64,000 bases of DNA from Hwanghaeella grinnelliae (GTDB lineage: Bacteria > Pseudomonadota > Alphaproteobacteria > UBA8366 > Aestuariispiraceae). This document shows, piece by piece, positions 1,243 to 42,062 of the stretch; position 1 is the first letter of the stretch; each line of letters starts with the position of its first letter. Position numbers and translations under genes: made by a program. The notes under the pieces are model-generated. The model was not told the origin of the DNA. It made no database searches and saw only the letters and a program-made list of their open reading frames with translations. The DNA is taken from assembly GCF_004005845.1 (NCBI RefSeq), contig NZ_SADE01000004.1, positions 124,001-188,000 of the forward strand, given 5' to 3'.

Positions 1243-4089
1243 ATGGACGATCTCCTTAGCGAGTTTTTGACCGAAACTGCGGAGAGCATGGACACGCTCG
1301 ACGTGGAATTGGTGAAGCTTGAACAAAATCCGAACGATCAAGCTATTCTTTCGAACATTTTCCGCCTGGTGCATACGATCAAAGGGACCTGCGGCTTTCT
1401 TGGCCTGCCGCGGCTTGAATCGGTGGCGCATGCCTCCGAGAATGTGCTCGGACGTATTCGCGACGGCGAATTGGAGATCAGCCAAGGTGCTGTCTCGCTG
1501 GTCTTGGAGTCTCTCGACCAAATCAAAATGATCCTGTCCGACCTGGAAGCGACGGAGGCCGAACCCGCGGGTGACGACTCCGATCTGATCGCGCGTTTGA
1601 ACCATCTCGCGGAAACGGGCGAAGTTCCGGCCGGTGGCGCTGCCGCGCCTGCCGCATCCAGTAATGACGATGCGCCTGCGACGAAGGACGAGGAAGAACT
1701 CGCCGCGACCGAAGCGATGATGGCTGAACTGGAAGACGCTGTTGAGGAAGCCCCGACGCCGGCGGCTCCATCCAGTGGTAGCGCCGCACTAGACGCGCTT
1801 ATGAACAGCGACGAGGTCGCCGCTGATAATGACGAGTTGCAGGCCGCGTTCGATAATGCGGTTTATGAGGGACCCGGCGACCCGTTTGCCGCCTTGAAGG
1901 GCGATCCGGAAGACGAACCCGCCGAGGAACCTGAGGACGAACCGGTGATTGCCGAAGCCTCGGTGCCCGCGACGGTTGAAGAAAAGAAGGCGCCGGCGGC
2001 GAAATCCGAGCCGGAAGCCGCGGCCGCCAAGAAGGAAGGCGGCGGGGTCACGCAGACCATCCGCGTCAACGTCGACCTGCTGGAAAACCTGATGACCATG
2101 GTCAGCGAGTTGGTGCTGACCCGCAACCAGCTTATGCAGATCCTGCGCAGCCAGGGCGAAAGCGATTTCGGTGCGCCGCTTCAGCGCTTGTCGCATGTGA
2201 CGACCGAGCTGCAGGAAGGCGTCATGAAGACGCGCATGCAGCCAATCGGCAATGCCTGGGCGAAACTGCCGCGTATCATTCGTGACCTCAGCCTGGAATT
2301 GGACCGCAAGATCGACCTGCAAATGATCGGCGCGGAAACCGAGCTGGATCGTCAGGTGTTGGATATCATCAAGGATCCGCTGACCCATATGGTCCGGAAT
2401 TCCGCGGATCACGGCATCGAACCGCCGGCCGACCGCGTGAAAGCCGGCAAGCCGGATACGGGGACGATCACGCTGAACGCCTATCATGAGGGCGGGCATA
2501 TCCATATCGTCATCCAAGATGACGGTAAGGGCCTGAATATGGCCCGCATCCGCGAGAAGGCGGTTTCGAATGGTATCGCCACCGAGTCCGAACTGGATGC
2601 GATGAGCGAACATCAGATTCAACAGATGATCTTTGCGGCGGGCTTCTCAACGGCAGCGGCGGTCACCAGCGTCTCGGGGCGCGGTGTCGGCATGGATGTC
2701 GTGAAGACGAATATCGACAAGATCGGCGGCACGGTCGAACTGAAGTCGGTCGAAGGCCGTGGTACGACCTTCCTGATCAAAATTCCGCTGACATTGGCCA
2801 TCGTTTCGGCGTTGATCGTCGAATGCGCGGACGAACGCTTCGCGATCCCGCAGATCAGCGTCGTGGAATTGGTGCGTGCCAGCAACGACTCCGAACACAA
2901 GATCGAGGAAATTCACGGCACGCCTGTGCTGCGCCTTCGCAACAGACTGCTTCCGCTGGTCTCGCTGCGCCGGTTGCTCGACGTTCCGACCAATGATGAG
3001 GATTTCATCAGCGACGAGAACTTCATCGTCGTGGCCCAGGTGGGGAATTATTCCTTCGGGATCATCGTCGACAAGATCTTCGATGCCGAGGAAATCGTCG
3101 TCAAACCGACTTCCACCGTGTTGCGGAACATTTCGATCTTCTCGGGCAACACGATCTTGGGTGACGGTAGCGTGATCATGATCCTTGACCCGAACGGCAT
3201 TGCACAGACAACCGGGGAAATGGCGACCCCGGACCAAACTGCGCAAGATGTCAGTACCGTACAGGCCAGTGGCGATGACGAACGCGTTGCCCTGCTGTTG
3301 TTCCGCGCGGGCGATAAATCGCCGAAATCGGTGCCGCTGGGCCTTGTCGCACGGTTGGAAGAAATCGACTTCGATGTGGTCGAATACTCCAATGGCCAGG
3401 CGATGGTGCAGTATCGCGGTTCGCTGATGCCGCTGGTCCCGATCAACGATTCATACAGCTTCCCGGAAACGGGCAAGAAGCCGACGTTGGTCTTCTCCGA
3501 TCGTGATCGGACAATGGGGCTGGTCGTCGACGAAATTCTGGACATCGTGGAAGACCGTTTGTCGGTCGAACATAGTGCATCCAAGGAAGGCATGATCGGC
3601 AGCGCCATCGTTGCCGGGAAGGCAACGGAAATCCTGGATACCGGTTACTTCCTGACCAAGGCGTTCCACGATTGGTTCGGCGTCGAAGGTGAGGTTTCCG
3701 TTACCGAGGGCCGTTCGTCCCGCCGCCGGATTCTGCTGGTGGATGACAGTTCCTTCTTCCGGAACCTGTTGACGCCGATCTTGTCCGTTGCGGGCTATTC
3801 GGTCACCACGGTTACCAGTGCCGCCGAAGCGCTTGAGCTTTGCGAACGGGGTGACGAATTCGATGGGATCGTTAGCGATATCGAAATGCCGGATATGAGC
3901 GGCTTCGAATTGGTCGAACATATCCGGGCTGGAACCAGGTGGGCCAAGCTGCCGATCGTCGCAATGTCTTCCCATACCAGCGCGGCGGCAGTGGATCGCG
4001 GCCGCGAGGTCGGCTTCACCGATTATGTGGCGAAGCATGACCGCGACGGTCTGCTTCAGACATTGGCGGAGACCTTCGGTCAGGGATGA
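1243..4089 (+). CDS. cheA: Hybrid chemotaxis kinase CheA with two CheW-like domains and C-terminal receiver
   Basis: A 948-residue histidine kinase. Domains in order: Hpt (1-110, phospho-His44 in VHTIKGTCGFLG); a long acidic Ala/Glu/Pro linker (110-270) that seems to replace a recognisable CheY-binding P2; dimerisation helices (from about 275); HATPase with N box HMVRNSADHGIE, G1 DDGKGL and G2 GRGVGMDVV; a CheW-type domain (530-665); a second CheW-like domain (about 685-815); and a receiver domain (825-945) with phospho-Asp879 in VSDIEMPD. It leads cheA-cheY-cheB-cheR. No cheW follows, so coupling to receptors may use the second CheW-like domain or a cheW elsewhere. A GGGGAG stands about 10 bases before the ATG. 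Confidence 0.95.
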   Translation: MDDLLSEFLTETAESMDTLDVELVKLEQNPNDQAILSNIFRLVHTIKGTCGFLGLPRLESVAHASENVLGRIRDGELEISQGAVSLVLESLDQIKMILSDLEATEAEPAGDDSDLIARLNHLAETGEVPAGGAAAPAASSNDDAPATKDEEELAATEAMMAELEDAVEEAPTPAAPSSGSAALDALMNSDEVAADNDELQAAFDNAVYEGPGDPFAALKGDPEDEPAEEPEDEPVIAEASVPATVEEKKAPAAKSEPEAAAAKKEGGGVTQTIRVNVDLLENLMTMVSELVLTRNQLMQILRSQGESDFGAPLQRLSHVTTELQEGVMKTRMQPIGNAWAKLPRIIRDLSLELDRKIDLQMIGAETELDRQVLDIIKDPLTHMVRNSADHGIEPPADRVKAGKPDTGTITLNAYHEGGHIHIVIQDDGKGLNMARIREKAVSNGIATESELDAMSEHQIQQMIFAAGFSTAAAVTSVSGRGVGMDVVKTNIDKIGGTVELKSVEGRGTTFLIKIPLTLAIVSALIVECADERFAIPQISVVELVRASNDSEHKIEEIHGTPVLRLRNRLLPLVSLRRLLDVPTNDEDFISDENFIVVAQVGNYSFGIIVDKIFDAEEIVVKPTSTVLRNISIFSGNTILGDGSVIMILDPNGIAQTTGEMATPDQTAQDVSTVQASGDDERVALLLFRAGDKSPKSVPLGLVARLEEIDFDVVEYSNGQAMVQYRGSLMPLVPINDSYSFPETGKKPTLVFSDRDRTMGLVVDEILDIVEDRLSVEHSASKEGMIGSAIVAGKATEILDTGYFLTKAFHDWFGVEGEVSVTEGRSSRRRILLVDDSSFFRNLLTPILSVAGYSVTTVTSAAEALELCERGDEFDGIVSDIEMPDMSGFELVEHIRAGTRWAKLPIVAMSSHTSAAAVDRGREVGFTDYVAKHDRDGLLQTLAETFGQG

Positions 4090-33785: not shown

Positions 33786-35222
33786 TTGTTGGATACCATC
33801 GTCCAGATTCTGGATTGGGATTGGACAGGGGCGCTTGTTGCAGGCGGGACCATCTTGGCCCTTTGGCTCGCATTCCTGGGGGTCACCACCGGCTATTTGA
33901 AATCCGACAAAGACCGGCGGGCGCTGGCGAAGCGCGTTCGGCGCAGTAAAAGTTGGTATCGGCGATGGCAGCGTATGGTTCGCCGGTTGCTGAAATGGGC
34001 CGATGCAGCTTTTGCTTTCGACGAGTCAAAGCAGGGGGCCGTGTTTCAGATCGGTCCATGGTCACGCTGCCTGACCTTGGCGTATCTCTATCCGATTTTC
34101 TTTTTCCTCGTTGCCTGGGGCATCGGCGCACAATCGCCCTTGTCGGGATGGGACCTGGGGCTGGATGCAACCGCTTCGGTGGAACGACGGTGGGGCACGA
34201 TTGCCGTCATAGTTGGGATCGGTGGAGTATTCTTTTCATTCTTTAAGATTCAGCTGCCGGAAAAACTCGCAAGATTTGTCAGGGGGAAAGTAGAAAACTG
34301 GCTTAGTGCGCGATTGGCAGGCCTTGCGGCTGGAACGGCGGAGTGGGGCGCTGTCGCTGTCGCTATCGCTATCGCTATCGCTGTCGCTGTCGCTGTCGCT
34401 GTCGCTGACGCTGGCACTGGCGCTGGCGCTGGCGTTGTCGCTTACGCTGTCGCTGTCGCTGGCGCTGTCGCTGGCGTTGTCGCTGGCGTTGTCGCTTTCG
34501 CTTTCGCTGTCGCTGTCGCTGTCGCTGGCGTTGTCGCTGCCGCTGTCGCTCTATTTGTCCTCGGCAGTACTCTCCCTGCAATCACGATAGCGACGTTCTT
34601 TTTGTTGTTTCCAGTAATCAACAGCCTTGCGGATTATGTGTCCTTGCGCCTTACGCGCAGACTGTTGCGGTCTTGGCTGGAAGTTCCGGCGAAAGTGGCG
34701 GTGTCTGAACGGCTCTGGAAGTTGGGCCGTGCTCTTGTGACCGACCTGGCGGTGGCAGTCCTGTGCCTTGTCCTTCTTTCGGCTTTGTTTGCGGCCGTCA
34801 TGCCCGGTATCGGTGCCGCCGTGGAAAGGTTTTTTCCCGGTAACAGTTTCGTGGATTGGCGCGCCGCCATGAATGACTTTCGCCGGGAATGGTGGAAGGA
34901 CGGATTAGCGGTTTCCATGATGCTGTTCACCACGCTTTGGCCAACGGCTGTGCATTTCGCGCTTGGCAGTTTCGCGGCGATCATGCCGCCGCCGGAGGCC
35001 CGGCGCCTTCTGATCTATGCCTTCCGGGGGCGTGTCGCCGATGTCGATCGGTTCATCTTCGCCAACATTGCCGTGGGGCTGGTTGTCGCCATTTGTTTCG
35101 TCGGGTTTGTCACCGCAGGCGCGCGGCTACTTTCTGTTTGGGAGCAGGCCGGTTGGTTATTCGTGGAACTGCCATATCTGGTAAGCGATGCGGTCATGAA
35201 CACCTTGTACCCACGACCATAG
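33786..35222 (+). CDS. Multi-pass membrane protein with hexanucleotide-encoded Ala-Val core
   Basis: A 478-residue integral membrane protein that I do not recognise. Membrane segments are visible near residues 8-32, 98-118, 138-156, 190-262, about 320-345 and 420-445. A basic stretch ([25 protein letters not shown]) lies at about 42-68. Residues 189-255 are an almost uninterrupted Ala/Val/Ile/Gly run encoded by a ~200-base imperfect repeat of GTCGCT. The start is TTG, supported by GGGAGGA 7 bases upstream. Flanking regions have normal coding character, so the gene is real. It is isolated, between the GST operon (divergent) and hsp20 (convergent). Confidence 0.8.
34350..34551 (+). repeat. Imperfect hexanucleotide tandem repeat (GTCGCT)n
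   Basis: About 34 consecutive hexamers based on GTCGCT with scattered substitutions (ATCGCT, GGCGCT, GTTGTC, TTCGCT). Because the unit is 6 bases, gain or loss keeps the reading frame and changes the length of the Ala-Val membrane stretch. All three plus frames and some minus frames stay open across it, giving spurious Leu-Ser and Arg-Gln repeat readings. Confidence 0.95.
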
Positions 35223-36565: not shown

Positions 36566-37105
36566 ATGGTGCAGATCGGAACGGATCGATTGAGGGTGCG
36601 GCCCATTGAAGCCGCTGACGAACCGCATGTGCGTGGCTATGCGGGGCGGGAAGACTTTTGCCCTTATCTGCCCGTCGATCCCAAACAACCGGAGACCGTC
36701 GTGAGCTATGTGAGACAACAAATTCAGCCAGAGGGTTTGGACTCAGGAACGGCGATTGCGCTGGCGATTGTTCCCGGTGGCGTGGACCGCCCGGTGGGAA
36801 CGATTACGGTTTCGGTGCAACCCTTTCCGGTGCCCATCGGTCAGCTCGAATTCACGCTCGACCCTGAATATCGGGGCCGGGGTTACATGACGGAGGCCTT
36901 GGAGAGCGTCCTGCCCATGGCGTTCCGGGACCTTGGCCTGTTGCGGATCTGCGCCGCGTCCGACGTCGACAATGTCGACTGCCAGAATGTTCTGGAGCGG
37001 ATCGGCATGCATCAGACGAAACGCCTGCCGGAATACCGCACGGTAAACGGCGAAAAGCGGGATGCCTTCCTCTATGTCCTCGATGCGCAACCTGCCACGC
37101 AATAG
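36566..37105 (+). CDS. GNAT acetyltransferase, RimJ/RimL type
   Basis: A 179-residue protein with the RimJ/RimL layout: TDRLRVRPIEAADEPHVRGY at the N-terminus, GQLEFTLDPEYRGRGYMTEA as the acetyl-CoA-binding motif, and NCQNVLERIGM-like VDCQNVLERIGMHQ late in the sequence. It may acetylate a protein N-terminus or a small amine. It lies between rpmE (divergent) and a chemoreceptor gene, without an obvious functional link. Confidence 0.85.
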   Translation: MVQIGTDRLRVRPIEAADEPHVRGYAGREDFCPYLPVDPKQPETVVSYVRQQIQPEGLDSGTAIALAIVPGGVDRPVGTITVSVQPFPVPIGQLEFTLDPEYRGRGYMTEALESVLPMAFRDLGLLRICAASDVDNVDCQNVLERIGMHQTKRLPEYRTVNGEKRDAFLYVLDAQPATQ

Positions 37106-37275
37106 GAAGCATTTGGCCCGAATTCTCATACTTCCGGGCTGTTTTTTCCTCCTTGCCGGGACACACCCTAGTACGAACGGACAAATAGACGTCGTTCCGA
37201 CCGCCTCCTAAGGTTCTCGCAACGCTGGCTGGCTAATGCCGGTGCAAGAGAACAAACAGCGGTGGGGAGGCGCTC

Positions 37276-39372
37276 GTGGAACGTCTCAAAAAGCTCGGCT
37301 CGTTTTCGCGGACCGGCGACAAGGCCCAGGACGGGCCGGCGATTTCATCCGACGGGGGCGAAACGGTCACCGCGGGCGGATTGGCCGCGCTGACCGATGC
37401 CGTCCGCCAGGTCGTAGATGGTCAGTTGGACGCGCCGATGCCTGACTTTCCGCCGGGCTCTCCTATGCATGGGCTTGTCGAACAGACCGAACGGATGCGC
37501 GGGCGCCTGCGCGCACTCAGCCAAATCATCGAGGATCATACGCTTGAGGAAGGCACCGCCGAGCGGCAGCGCCGTGACGCCATGAGCGGGTTGGCCGAGA
37601 ATTTCGAGGCCGCAGTCTCGGGCTCCATTTCGTCGGTGGAAAGCCATGTGGCAACGGCACTCGACGATTCTTCAGACAGCGTGGACAGGGTTGCCCAGGT
37701 CGCTTCCGCCGCGACGGAGAGCTCCGCCAGCGTCACCGAAATAGGCCGCATGACCCAGCAGACAGCGGATTTGAGCGAACGGATGACCGAGCAAACCCGG
37801 ATCGCTCAGGAAACCACTGCGGAACTGGGCAGTGCCGCGGCCGATATTCTGGGCGTTGCCGATATCATTCAGGCTATTGCCGGTCAGACCAATTTGCTTG
37901 CCCTCAACGCGACCATCGAAGCGGCCCGTGCCGGGGAGGCGGGCCGGGGCTTCGCCGTCGTCGCCAACGAGGTGAAGACCCTTGCCCAACAGACGGCGGA
38001 TGCGACCGACCGGGTCAAAAACCTTATCGCCGCCGTCGATTCCGCAGCCGCGCGGGTGACCGAAGCGACCGGTGCGATCGGTGCGGCGGTGGCGGAACTC
38101 GATACAAGTGCAGGCGTCGTGGCTTCCGCGGTGGAAGAACAGCAAACCGCCAATCAGGAAATTGCCGCGAATGCTGAAGAGATTCTCGCCCGGATGCGAA
38201 GTTTCGAGGAACGAATGCAGGAAGTCCGTGGCGGCGTGCAGAAAATTCATGACGGCGCGGGCGCTTTCCTGGGGGAAATCCGTGCGGAAGCCGGCATCAA
38301 GGACGATGAAATTACTTTCGGGCAAAGCGCGCCGCTAAGCGGCAGCGCGGCCAGCCTGGGAACCGCAATGCGGGACGGAATCGCGCTCGCCTTCGCAGAG
38401 GTGAATGCGGCGGGCGGCGTCGGTGGCCGGAAACTGGCCTTGGAAACAGAGGATGACGCCTATGTTCCGGAACGCACGTTGGACAATGTTCGCGCGATGG
38501 TTCGTAGCGGGTCGGTCTTCGGCCTGATCGGGTCGGTTGGCACGCCGACATCGAAACTGGCCGAGCTTGTCGCGCGCGGGGGCGGCATTCCCTTCATCGG
38601 TCCGGTTACCGGGGCCGCGTTCCTGCGCGACCCGCAATTTCATCATGTCTTGAACATCCGCGCGTCCTACCAGCAGGAGGTGGACGCGTTGGTGAAATGG
38701 ATGACGGGAACGGTGCGGGCGAAGCGGCCCGCCTTGCTGTTTCAGGGCGATGCCTATGGTCAGACGGTCAGGGCCGCCCTGGAAACGGCGCTGAAACCGC
38801 ACGGCATGGATTTGTCCGCGCAGGGGGCATACGAACGTCAAACGGGCGACGTGCAGCCCGCCTATGAGATCATCCGGGCGGCCGAGCCGGACATCATCTT
38901 CATGGCCGGCACGGCGGGACCGACGGCCGCCTTCGTCCAAGCGGCACGGGACGGCGGTCTGACTTGTCCCCTGGCAACCATTTCCTTCGTCGGCAGCCGC
39001 GATTTCGCCCGGCAGGCCGGGAATGCGGGCGCCGGGGTCATCATCAGCCAGGTCGTGCCTCTGCCGACCGATGGAAGCCAGGGCGTCGTCCGCCGTTATC
39101 TCGACAGCGCCCGACGACATGGGATCTGTACCGAACCGGATTTTCAATCGCTGGAAGGCTATGTGACGGGACTGACGGCCGCGGAAATCCTGACCTCGGT
39201 CGATGGTCCGTTGACCAGGGATGCCTTCGTCAAGGCGGCGACCGGCGTGCAGCATGACGTGGATATCGGTGGTTTCAAGCTGGTCTTCGGACCGACCCGC
39301 AACCAGGGATCGGACCAAGTTTATCTGACTGAGCTGAAACCAGGTGGCGGTTTCGACCTGATTCACGCCTGA
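37276..39372 (+). CDS. Soluble chemoreceptor fused to a type I periplasmic-binding-protein domain
   Basis: A 698-residue protein. Residues 1-95 are a soluble, weakly helical region; about 100-335 form an MCP signalling domain, with the hairpin tip [20 protein letters not shown] (201-220) followed by [17 protein letters not shown]. Residues 345-698 are a branched-chain-amino-acid-type binding domain (Peripla_BP_6), starting [20 protein letters not shown] and containing [26 protein letters not shown] and [15 protein letters not shown]. There is no transmembrane segment and no signal peptide, so the sensor domain should be cytosolic. No HAMP domain or CheR-tethering pentapeptide is visible. GTG start with GGGGAGG 5 bases upstream. 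Confidence 0.9.
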
Positions 39373-39386
39373 ACGCGGAATAGGGA

Positions 39387-40850
39387 TTAGCGTTCGGTCA
39401 GTTTCAATTCGATACGGCGGTTTCGTCGGTAGGCGATTTCGTCGTTGCCTTCATCCAGCGGCTGAAACTCGGCGAAACCGGTCGCGGCGAGACGCTCCGA
39501 CGGGATGCCCCGGTTTTCCAGGAACTTCACGACCGAGATGGCGCGCGCCGTCGACAATTCCCAGTTCGACGGGAAGCGCGCGGTAGAGATCGGAACGCTG
39601 TCGGTATGTCCGTCAACGCGCAGGACCCAGTTGATCTCCGGCGGAATATCGCTGGAAATCTGGATAAGGGTATCGGCCAGTTGGCCCAACTGCTCCTGCC
39701 CGGCCGGCCCGAGTTCGGCGGAGCCTTGGGAGAAGAGCACCTCGGATTGGAAAACGAAGCGGTCGCCGACGACACGGACATCCTGGCGATTGCCCAGAAT
39801 TTCCCGCAGGCGGCCGAAGAATTCCGAACGGTAGCGCGCCAGTTCCTGAACCTTGCTGGCCAAGGCCAGGTTTAGGCGTTTGCCCAGGTCGACGATCTGC
39901 GCCTTTTGTTCCTTGTCGCGGGCTTCAGAGGCATCCAGGGTCTGGTTGAGGGCGGAGATCTGTTCGTTGAGGGTGGCAATCTGTTCACGCAAACGGGCCG
40001 ATTCAGCCCGCGCCAACAGGACGGCTTCCGTCTTCGCGTCGATTTCCTTCAGGTTGGAGCGCGCGGCGTCCTCCATATTCTCGATTTCCGCTTCTTTCTC
40101 CTCCAATGACTTTTCAAGCGCCGCCAAGCGCGCGGCCCGCAACGCCAATTCTTCGGTTCTGGCTTGAAGGTCTTCAGCCTGTGCGTCGATCTTTTCGGAC
40201 TGGCTGGCGATCGTCTCCGATTGCTGTCCCAGTTCTTCGGCCTGTTTCTCGCTCAAGGCTTCCAGATCGGCGACTTGCTGCAGCAATTCCCGGCGCAGGG
40301 CGGTCAGGGCATTCACGTCCTGTGCAAGAGTGTCGAGTTCCTTCAACTGAAGCTCGATCGTCTCCTTGTTCGCTTCGACGACCGTATAGGCGTCTTCCAA
40401 TTCCTGGCGCGTGCGGGACAGCAGGGCGTCGCTATCGGCCAGCCGGCTTTCCTTTTCCTGCAGATCGGCGCGAATGTCATTGGCGGCGCTCTCCGCCGCG
40501 TCCATGCGCGCCAGCACCGAATTCCGTTCAATCCGTAGCGCGCCGAGGGACGCTTGTAGGTCGTCCCGCTCGGCCAAACTTGCCCGCAGCTGGGTCGAGA
40601 GGCTTTCGATGTTGGAGCGCAAATCCTCGTTCGCCGATTGCTCAAGGCTCAATTGTTCTGCGATGTCGGCGATCTGCCGGTTCAGTTTCTCCAAGGCCGC
40701 GTCACGCCCGACCAGGGCTTCGTTGAGATAGACCTGGGAGATGACGAAGATCATCAGTAGAAAGATGATCACCATCAACAGTGTTGCCAGGGCATCGACG
40801 AAGCCCGGCCAAATGTCGAGGTTTGTTCTGCTGCGCCGGGCTAGTGCCAT
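39387..40850 (-). CDS. MotB-like protein: one membrane segment, long coiled coil, OmpA peptidoglycan-binding domain
   Basis: A 487-residue inner-membrane protein. A single transmembrane helix (about 18-42) opens with Asp19 in PGFVDALATLLMVIIF, the position of the proton-carrying Asp of MotB/ExbD-type stators. Residues 45-330 are a long coiled coil rich in Glu, Gln and Leu. The C-terminal OmpA-like domain (about 350-487) carries VDGHTDSVPIS and RRNRRIELKL for binding peptidoglycan. Its partner, the MotA/ExbB-like gene, lies 63 bases upstream on the same strand. Together they should form a proton-driven stator-like complex of unknown cargo, not the flagellar MotAB. Confidence 0.88.
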   Translation of the reverse strand: MALARRSRTNLDIWPGFVDALATLLMVIIFLLMIFVISQVYLNEALVGRDAALEKLNRQIADIAEQLSLEQSANEDLRSNIESLSTQLRASLAERDDLQASLGALRIERNSVLARMDAAESAANDIRADLQEKESRLADSDALLSRTRQELEDAYTVVEANKETIELQLKELDTLAQDVNALTALRRELLQQVADLEALSEKQAEELGQQSETIASQSEKIDAQAEDLQARTEELALRAARLAALEKSLEEKEAEIENMEDAARSNLKEIDAKTEAVLLARAESARLREQIATLNEQISALNQTLDASEARDKEQKAQIVDLGKRLNLALASKVQELARYRSEFFGRLREILGNRQDVRVVGDRFVFQSEVLFSQGSAELGPAGQEQLGQLADTLIQISSDIPPEINWVLRVDGHTDSVPISTARFPSNWELSTARAISVVKFLENRGIPSERLAATGFAEFQPLDEGNDEIAYRRNRRIELKLTER

Positions 40851-40913
40851 GGGGAGCCTTCCCCCCCGTGTCCCGGCCGTTCAAGCGTTGTCGGCGCCGT
40901 GGAAACCATGCCC

Positions 40914-42062
40914 TTACGCATCGCCTTCCGCGATGGCCGCGATGGTACGGGCCAGCAGGCGAATTTCGCTGCGAATTTCCTGAACGGTCTCCGTCCGGCC
41001 CGCACTTGCCTGATCGATCATGCGGTTCAAATTGGATTCGATATTGTGCAGATGCTTCACCATGGCCTGATCGGCGCCGGCTGCCGGCTTCGCCAGGGCT
41101 TCCATGACGTTCTGCAGGCGCTGCTGGCCTTCCGCCAGTTTCAACATCAGGTCCTGTTCGGTCCGCATGGAGGTGCTCAGCGTTTCCAGGCTGCTGGAAA
41201 GCGCTGCAATATCCGTGTGCGACGAGGCCCGGGATTCTTCCGCGCGCGCGATGGTACGCTGCAAGCTTTCCAAACTATCGGCGGTTTGTTCCAACAATGC
41301 CTGAATATAAGCAGGGACGGACTGATCGCCGTCGCCGATGGCCGTGCCGCCCCCGCCGCTGAGGCGGGTCAGGCTGCTGAGCCATTCTTCCAGATCGTTG
41401 TAGAAGCGGTTCTGCGCCTGGCCGGCCTGCAAGCCGAGAAAGCCGAGAACCAATGATCCCGCCAAGCCGAATAGCGATGAACTGAACGCCGTTCCCATGC
41501 CGGAAAGAGGCGCTTCCAGACCGGCTTTCAGTTCTTCAAAGGCAAGCCCGACATTCGATCCGCCGACATCGATGCCGGCGATCACGTTGCTGACGCTTTG
41601 CACTGTTTGCAACAGGCCCCAGAAGGTGCCGAGCAGCCCCAGGAAGACCAACAGGCCGACCATGTAACGGCTGATTTCCCGGGCTTCGTCCAAGCGGACG
41701 GCGATGCCGTCCAGCAGGGTTTGCATGGCCATCGTGGACAGGCTGAGGCGCGTCATGCTGCGGTCGCTGCGTTCGGACAGCATCATGGCCGCCGGGGCAA
41801 GGAGCTTCGGTGCGGCAATGCTTGTCTGCGCCCCATGGGCGCCGCGGCGGAAATTTTCGATCCAGTTGATTTCGCGATTGAGGCGCCCGACGGTCCAGAA
41901 ATCGATGCCGATCCCTATGACCAGGGCCAGGACGATCGTACCGTTGAGAAAGACATTGGCCAGGAAAGCGCCGATAAGCGCCTCATAGATCAGCAGGCAA
42001 CCTGCCGCGACCAAGACCAGGAACAAGATCATCCGAACAAGAAAACCGATGGGCCGTGTCAC
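40914..42062 (-). CDS. MotA/TolQ/ExbB-family proton channel protein
   Basis: A 382-residue inner-membrane protein with hydrophobic segments near residues 8-28, 38-58, 133-155 and 190-215. The family core is FLGLLGTFWGLLQTV and LSGMGTAFSSSLFGLAGSLVLGF, typical of the ExbB/TolQ channel helices. A C-terminal coiled stretch (about 250-380) is longer than in TolQ. GTG start with AGAGG six bases upstream. It is the upstream partner of the MotB-like gene; an OmpA-like exported protein is encoded just upstream again. Confidence 0.88.
   Translation of the reverse strand: MTRPIGFLVRMILFLVLVAAGCLLIYEALIGAFLANVFLNGTIVLALVIGIGIDFWTVGRLNREINWIENFRRGAHGAQTSIAAPKLLAPAAMMLSERSDRSMTRLSLSTMAMQTLLDGIAVRLDEAREISRYMVGLLVFLGLLGTFWGLLQTVQSVSNVIAGIDVGGSNVGLAFEELKAGLEAPLSGMGTAFSSSLFGLAGSLVLGFLGLQAGQAQNRFYNDLEEWLSSLTRLSGGGGTAIGDGDQSVPAYIQALLEQTADSLESLQRTIARAEESRASSHTDIAALSSSLETLSTSMRTEQDLMLKLAEGQQRLQNVMEALAKPAAGADQAMVKHLHNIESNLNRMIDQASAGRTETVQEIRSEIRLLARTIAAIAEGDA

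Follow-up and report, generated by a model that had tools for sequence, protein, structure and literature searches.

Periplasmic binding protein (PBP) folds usually operate beyond the inner membrane but are also found inside the cell, as in AmiC, a cytosolic amide sensor that controls an antiterminator. In chemoreceptors (MCPs), the tip of the helical hairpin is the end that binds CheA and CheW. Receptors driven by binding proteins, and sensors of the PBP clan in general, have been reviewed (PMC6321045, PMC8846402); in the TorT-TorS system, a kinase uses its helical sensor to read the binding protein (PMC6321045). Three of 11 studied chemoreceptor/solute-binding protein (SBP) pairs are gene neighbors in the account of PMC11113362, and matches to SBP families are noted to include cytosolic proteins and receptor sensor domains (PMC9602780). 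One chemoreceptor sequence with a Peripla_BP_5 domain has been listed, the pertinent part of that source not stating its topology (PMC8547431). The structure of TlpD illustrates how a cytosolic receptor whose sensor is C-terminal signals along the hairpin (PMC12871147), and receptors with C-terminal sensors, for which at least 17 sensor types are mentioned, are described as poorly characterized (PMC7390727).

Here we analyze a window of 64,000 nucleotides from Hwanghaeella grinnelliae in which one gene joins an MCP to a Peripla_BP_6 domain. The product is probably a soluble cytosolic MCP that has captured a signaling binding protein as the sensor of an internal ligand and that would alter CheA activity. 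The case for this fusion rests on one genome and one sequence.

Architecture of the fusion protein

The gene is a single open frame of 698 codons with a GTG start and no internal stop (Table 1). From stop to stop, the frame spans 711 codons, 13 of which lie open between the upstream stop and the GTG, and a motif resembling a ribosome-binding site is located five bases ahead of the start. No sigma-70-like promoter was found between positions 37080 and 39420 (0.5 expected by chance), and the short repeats around the gene look like chance occurrences.

Table 1 Features of the fusion gene and its surroundings (window positions; aa, residues of the fusion protein)
Feature	Position	Strand	Basis
Hybrid CheA with receiver, candidate partner of the fusion	1243..4089	+	Pfam
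GNAT acetyltransferase, upstream of insertion site	36566..37105	+	Pfam, locus comparison
GGGGAGG, ribosome-binding-site-like	37264..37270	+	printed sequence
Fusion gene, 698 aa: HAMP-like stretch, MCP hairpin, Peripla_BP_6	37276..39372	+	translation, Pfam
HAMP-like remnant, aa ~39-85, no membrane helix before it	37390..37530	+	alignment, phmmer
MCP helical hairpin, aa ~97-337, ends FLGEIRA	37564..38286	+	Pfam, alignments
Hairpin tip, aa 211-220	37906..37935	+	alignment with MCPs
Joint, aa 337-345, MCP end to mature binding-protein start	38284..38310	+	alignment with relatives
Peripla_BP_6 domain, aa 345-691	38308..39348	+	Pfam; matches to 4kv7, 3lop
OmpA-family gene, convergent, downstream edge of insertion site	39387..40850	-	Pfam, locus comparison

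The MCPsignal domain of the hairpin (residues 177-326) scored 93.2 bits against a Pfam cut-off of 34.6, which classes the N-terminal half as an MCP. The Peripla_BP_6 match extended over profile positions 1-342 of 343, a full-length domain, with 183.3 bits against a cut-off of 31.7; among solved binding proteins, 4kv7 was the best match (1.8e-43) and 3lop was also matched (6.6e-39). A sequence-only reading of this DNA had proposed a signaling part at about residues 100-335 that is followed, not preceded, by a complete Peripla_BP_6 domain, and this fused architecture is confirmed.

Topology was judged by a hydropathy scan and by reading frames by eye. The peak 19-residue Kyte-Doolittle mean, 1.5, fell within the coiled coil, and among windows that begin ahead of residue 40 the maximum was 0.74; no 19-residue window had a membrane-like mean, and no leader was found ahead of the frame. 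The same reading had described a protein with no signal peptide and no membrane helix, and this description withstood the hydropathy search for a missed segment. With neither a membrane helix nor an export signal, in its hydropathy profile or in the frames at the joint, the protein has the features of a cytosolic receptor and would be expected to reside in the cytosol; it lacks the leader of the exported Peripla_BP_6 solute-binding proteins.

The HAMP-like stretch ahead of the hairpin was seen when the fusion protein was aligned with two membrane MCPs, and a phmmer match to the HAMP-Tsr entry 3zx6 starts at residue 37; Pfam HAMP was not listed at E 0.1. This likeness suggests that the MCP half may descend from a membrane receptor. 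The ten-residue tip is conserved and intact as judged by alignment, and binding of CheA and CheW is predicted for it. The spacing between the tip and the methylation region equals that of two membrane MCPs (61 and 74 residues). From HAMP to tip, the fusion measures 172 residues versus 193 in a receptor of the sister species G001, and from tip to end motif 126 versus 147, so that each arm falls short by 21 residues (three heptads). The gap in the N-terminal arm is visible against both membrane MCPs aligned, and the 147-residue C-terminal arm refers to 12 rows with the motif found, among 31 others examined. An equal loss of 21 residues per arm is what a working hairpin would require. The equality rests on few comparisons because the arm lengths of other MCPs vary: at least six others have shorter C-terminal arms (127-142 in L052, L053, L061, and L075; 133 and 134 in two receptors of the same genome), and HAMP-to-tip lengths of 159, 156, and 156 were obtained for three further MCPs by motif position, not checked by alignment.

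At the joint, FLGEIRA, the usual MCP C-terminus in this group, runs into AEAGI, where exported relatives of the binding protein have the mature start AETGV. The ten residues after FLGEIRA align with the mature start AETGVTDSTV of these relatives, and only seven residues separate the MCP end from the Pfam start of the PBP. Because the joint aligns with both ends, the MCP end and the mature binding protein are each complete in the fusion, which looks genuine and orderly. A single-sequence fold model was poor (mean pLDDT 47.5, with blocks of the PBP half mostly at 27-48); in this low-confidence model, the helix extends to residue 339.

The gene comes from a single assembly, and an error of sequencing or assembly might have run two genes together, one for an MCP and one for an exported PBP. 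We find this barely credible, since the other two frames across the joint, read by eye, contain no hydrophobic leader, the two halves lie within those seven residues of each other, and the contig spans 767,740 bases in a 7-contig assembly. A frame error, named as a risk in the sequence-only reading, left no trace: homology of both halves runs up to the joint, and a frame-shift origin was rejected with no leader in the other frames.

Origin and pocket of the binding-protein half

Among 59 relatives of the PBP half, which are not independent and include some near-copies, a hydrophobic leader was recognized by a crude test in 50; eight missed the test and showed an RR pair upstream by eye, and one was not judged. 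Neighboring genes were read for 33 stand-alone relatives. In 16 of these, the gene that comes next on that strand encodes an MCP, with one neighbor (L046) running off its contig and matching weakly, and in nine it encodes another HAMP-type receptor, bringing the receptor-adjacent genes to 25 of 33. The other receptors were kinases (L060, L065, L070, and L074), a hybrid kinase with a HAMP below the cut-off (L068), a cyclase (L051), SpoIIE phosphatases (L066 and L072), and one receptor cut off before its output (L059); L067, which was not Pfam-scanned, resembles L065. For seven relatives (L048, L058, L063, L069, L071, L076, and L077), no such neighbor was seen among the listed frames, which were not Pfam-scanned. 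Pairs annotated as a binding protein followed by an MCP are present on plasmids of Ruegeria TM1040 and Phaeobacter DSM 17395.

In the tree, the fusion was placed inside a 44-row alphaproteobacterial clade with support of 99/96. Its PBP branch, at 1.39, is long compared with the median of 0.18; the branches of two stand-alone relatives exceed it (1.61 and 1.5), and the placement of long-branch rows, that of the fusion included, is unsure. Tree position and neighbor adjacency together put the PBP half in the receptor-linked clade, and it looks to descend from exported binding proteins dedicated to signaling. Judged in this way, the half comes from a receptor-linked and not from an ordinary transport clade, a point that is new with respect to the sequence-only reading.

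Members of the clade (L045-L077, with L017 and L018) precede receptors whose outputs are interchangeable (MCP, histidine kinase, hybrid kinase, adenylate/guanylate cyclase, and SpoIIE phosphatase), several of which have a TorS-like sensor. The Pfam TorS sensor domain was over the cut-off in the partners of L061 and L070 and below it in the other matching partners. Paired as it is with membrane receptors that have no fewer than four kinds of output (MCP, histidine kinase, cyclase, and SpoIIE phosphatase), the clade appears as a modular signaling family, and the receptor-paired members form a ready set for ligand discovery.

At 80 alignment columns, at least 90% of the 46 top-scoring relatives agree, and the fusion keeps 69 of these columns (86%); leave-one-out values among the 46 had a minimum of 84% and a median of 96%, and four relatives scored below the fusion. 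Eleven columns are changed, including Tyr547, replaced by Ala beside the presumed pocket. Tyr547 and the ten other changes, taken with the long branch, would fit a PBP half that no longer binds a small molecule and serves as a structural, localizing, or protein-docking module on an unregulated cytosolic MCP. We hold this to be improbable, as the conserved positions at ~421-425, 446-447, and 570-573 are retained. The sequence-only reading would have been refuted by a domain lacking its ligand-binding residues; in this respect, most conserved columns stood and Tyr547 did not.

The ligand had been guessed to be an amino acid or a similar metabolite. The pocket residues of LivJ, which we take to be Ser79, Thr102, Tyr202, and Glu226, correspond in the fusion to Thr423, Gly446, Thr546, and Ser570, in an alignment possibly off by one or two residues. 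The Glu of LivJ and LivK presumably grips the amino group of the ligand, and this position (Glu226 in LivJ) is Ser in all 46 relatives; the fusion PBP half is 19% identical to both LivJ and LivK and does not share their pocket. An amino-acid ligand is not implied because the LivJ contact positions differ in the whole clade, and the guess is not supported. In its favor, members of Peripla_BP_6 are described as mostly predicted binders of branched-chain amino acids (PMC9602780). Two cysteines of the fusion, considered as a hint of a reducing compartment, were dropped: at least two are also found in 13 of the 59 relatives, elsewhere in the sequence, and the second cysteine of the fusion sits in a gapped stretch of the alignment.

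Distribution of the fusion and history of the site

The full protein was searched against five overlapping sets, all within the window's own phylum: 98 relatives and 387 class genomes with an E limit of 1e-60, 43 order genomes and 397 phylum genomes with a limit of 1e-45, and 376 less complete genomes of the class with a limit of 1e-70. No second copy of the fusion was found in any of the five sets at these strict limits, which catch only this PBP clade and miss MCPs fused to other binding-protein families. All other listed matches start at query residue 289 or later, with 31-45% identity. On plasmids, 64 records matched and none covered 80% of the query. A peptide-pattern search of genome contigs matched 35 stretches, with only two relatives among them, distant MCPs.

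Two candidate fusions were rejected, one (G070, open frame 1293) with the domain following a leader and the other (G631, open frame 693) with the domain following a leader of its own. The G631 locus (L091) holds an exported PBP relative with an upstream frame in another phase, which by eye we take to be a FliP-like flagellar protein.

The own genome contains no close stand-alone copy of the PBP half; its other PBPs reached 22-25% over long stretches, and one reached 37% over 87 residues. Its MCPs are 33-48% identical to the MCP half, bar one short match of 54% elsewhere, and no other match to this half was found at E 1e-36 in 289 genomes. The sister species G001 carries a two-gene binding-protein/MCP pair on another contig, and a search of the own genome for an orthologue of that partner MCP gave only matches of 25-27%.

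Seven loci of the family were compared. The flanking genes of both sides are in order in four (G001, G007, G002, and G004), and for the remaining three, the stretch yielded the right-hand genes only. The OmpA-family gene has relatives in 13 of 14 family genomes and stands together with the adjoining gene (39387-42062, below) in all seven loci. At this site in G001, the fusion gene is absent; only 9 bases separate the OmpA-family gene from an acetyltransferase, and no gene intervenes. This acetyltransferase may not be the same gene because it is only 40% identical to that of the window. In G007, no MCP was seen at the site. In G002 and G004, a membrane MCP of 714 residues each fills the slot on the opposite strand; we read both as Cache-like, and with their membrane segments and other strand, they are not obvious parents.

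Two further observations concern the surroundings. At 39387-42062, the OmpA-family protein, with a long coiled coil, adjoins a protein without a Pfam match; our impression is that the former is MotB-like and the latter MotA/ExbB-like. A 478-residue protein encoded at 33786-35222 has long hydrophobic stretches rich in Ala, Val, and Gly and no Pfam match at E 0.001.

Occurrence in a single genome, absence from the site in the sister species, and the long branch would all be expected of a chance fusion that is non-functional and on its way out, as would the overall GC of the MCP and PBP halves (0.635 and 0.639), which exceeds that of 13 of 14 other window genes compared. We regard such an origin as quite improbable. 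The frame is full and has its ribosome-binding-like site, the MCP tip is conserved, and the GC3 of the halves (0.70 and 0.74) lies inside the 0.62-0.77 range of the 14 other window genes. Moreover, the genome holds no close copy of either half, and a fresh join of resident genes was therefore rejected.

Chemosensory setting and comparison with known systems

The genome has 31 MCP matches over the cut-off, the fusion included, and two CheAs, one at 1243 in the window and the other at C1:51507. The CheA at 1243, to which the sequence-only reading had tied the receptor, is real: Pfam recognized Hpt, dimerization, and ATPase domains, two CheW stretches, and a C-terminal receiver, and CheB and CheR follow. 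The fusion gene, on contig C4, lies ~33 kb from it. In a crude scan, seven of 29 other motif-recovered MCP frames had no membrane segment before the tip. One of them (L131:504-1931; C1, ~1375483) ends in a CZB zinc-binding domain. As cytosolic receptors and C-terminal sensors already occur in this genome, the new element is the type of sensor. Another MCP without a membrane segment (L143:2-1687; C2, ~1292269) has at least 200 residues after the hairpin, where the fetched stretch ends; these residues matched no sensor family at E 0.01, and part of the tail gives us the impression of PilZ.

Like other MCPs, the fusion protein would be dimeric. The two-lobe binding protein, exported in the relatives, would sit in the cytosol fused to the C-terminal helix of the hairpin. 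Binding of a ligand, which would have to occur in the cytosol, would bring the two lobes together and shift the C-arm helix at the rod end distal to the kinase; this movement would be passed along the coiled coil as far as the tip and change the activity of CheA. An alternative agrees with this explanation except in the last step, the functional receptor feeding a chemosensory output other than swimming. The genome's two CheAs and the ~33 kb between the gene and the receiver-bearing hybrid CheA would suit it. Nothing specific speaks against it; the tip resembles those of membrane MCPs, and sorting between CheAs is not readable from sequence. We rate it as unlikely.

On the preferred reading, that of a cytosolic receptor for an internal ligand, we tentatively propose that a two-protein periplasmic cascade became one cytosolic receptor when the PBP was captured without its leader and that the cell swims by its internal solute pool, a proposal to which we give somewhat less than even chances. 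If true, swimming would be governed by what the cell has taken up and not by its surroundings. It also suggests how a two-part extracellular sensor may become a one-part intracellular one, and the same binding-protein clade, in exported two-gene form and in fused form, offers a test case.

The sequence-only reading knew of no characterization of this architecture. No description of a fusion of MCPsignal with Peripla_BP_6 was found in the literature searched, which is not proof of its absence from print; C-terminal sensors on chemoreceptors are documented, with types that may include a Peripla_BP (PMC7390727), and the CZB-ended receptor is an example in this genome. The novelty thus holds for the combination and not for the placement of the sensor. 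The fusion is best seen as a variant of an established receptor kind, because C-terminal sensors have precedents among cytosolic receptors.

Among the closest counterparts are pairs such as PGA1_RS18200/RS18205 of Phaeobacter and TM1040_RS01290/RS01295 of Ruegeria, in which the PBP is ~43% identical to that of the fusion. In these pairs, an exported binding protein accompanies an MCP whose two membrane segments flank a large outside region, whereas the fusion is one chain with the MCP first and no leader or membrane helix. TorT-TorS is akin in that the Pfam TorS sensor is matched, mostly below the cut-off, by several receptors paired with the stand-alone relatives, but TorT is periplasmic (and presumably not a Peripla_BP_6 protein) and a TorS-like sensor is absent from the fusion. 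TlpD and other CZB-ended cytosolic MCPs, with L131 as the example from the same genome, are likewise soluble with the sensor after the hairpin; their sensor is a small zinc-binding helical bundle, whereas that of the fusion is a two-lobe binding protein. AmiC, too, has a Peripla_BP-type fold at work in the cytosol; what it controls is an antiterminator and not an MCP.
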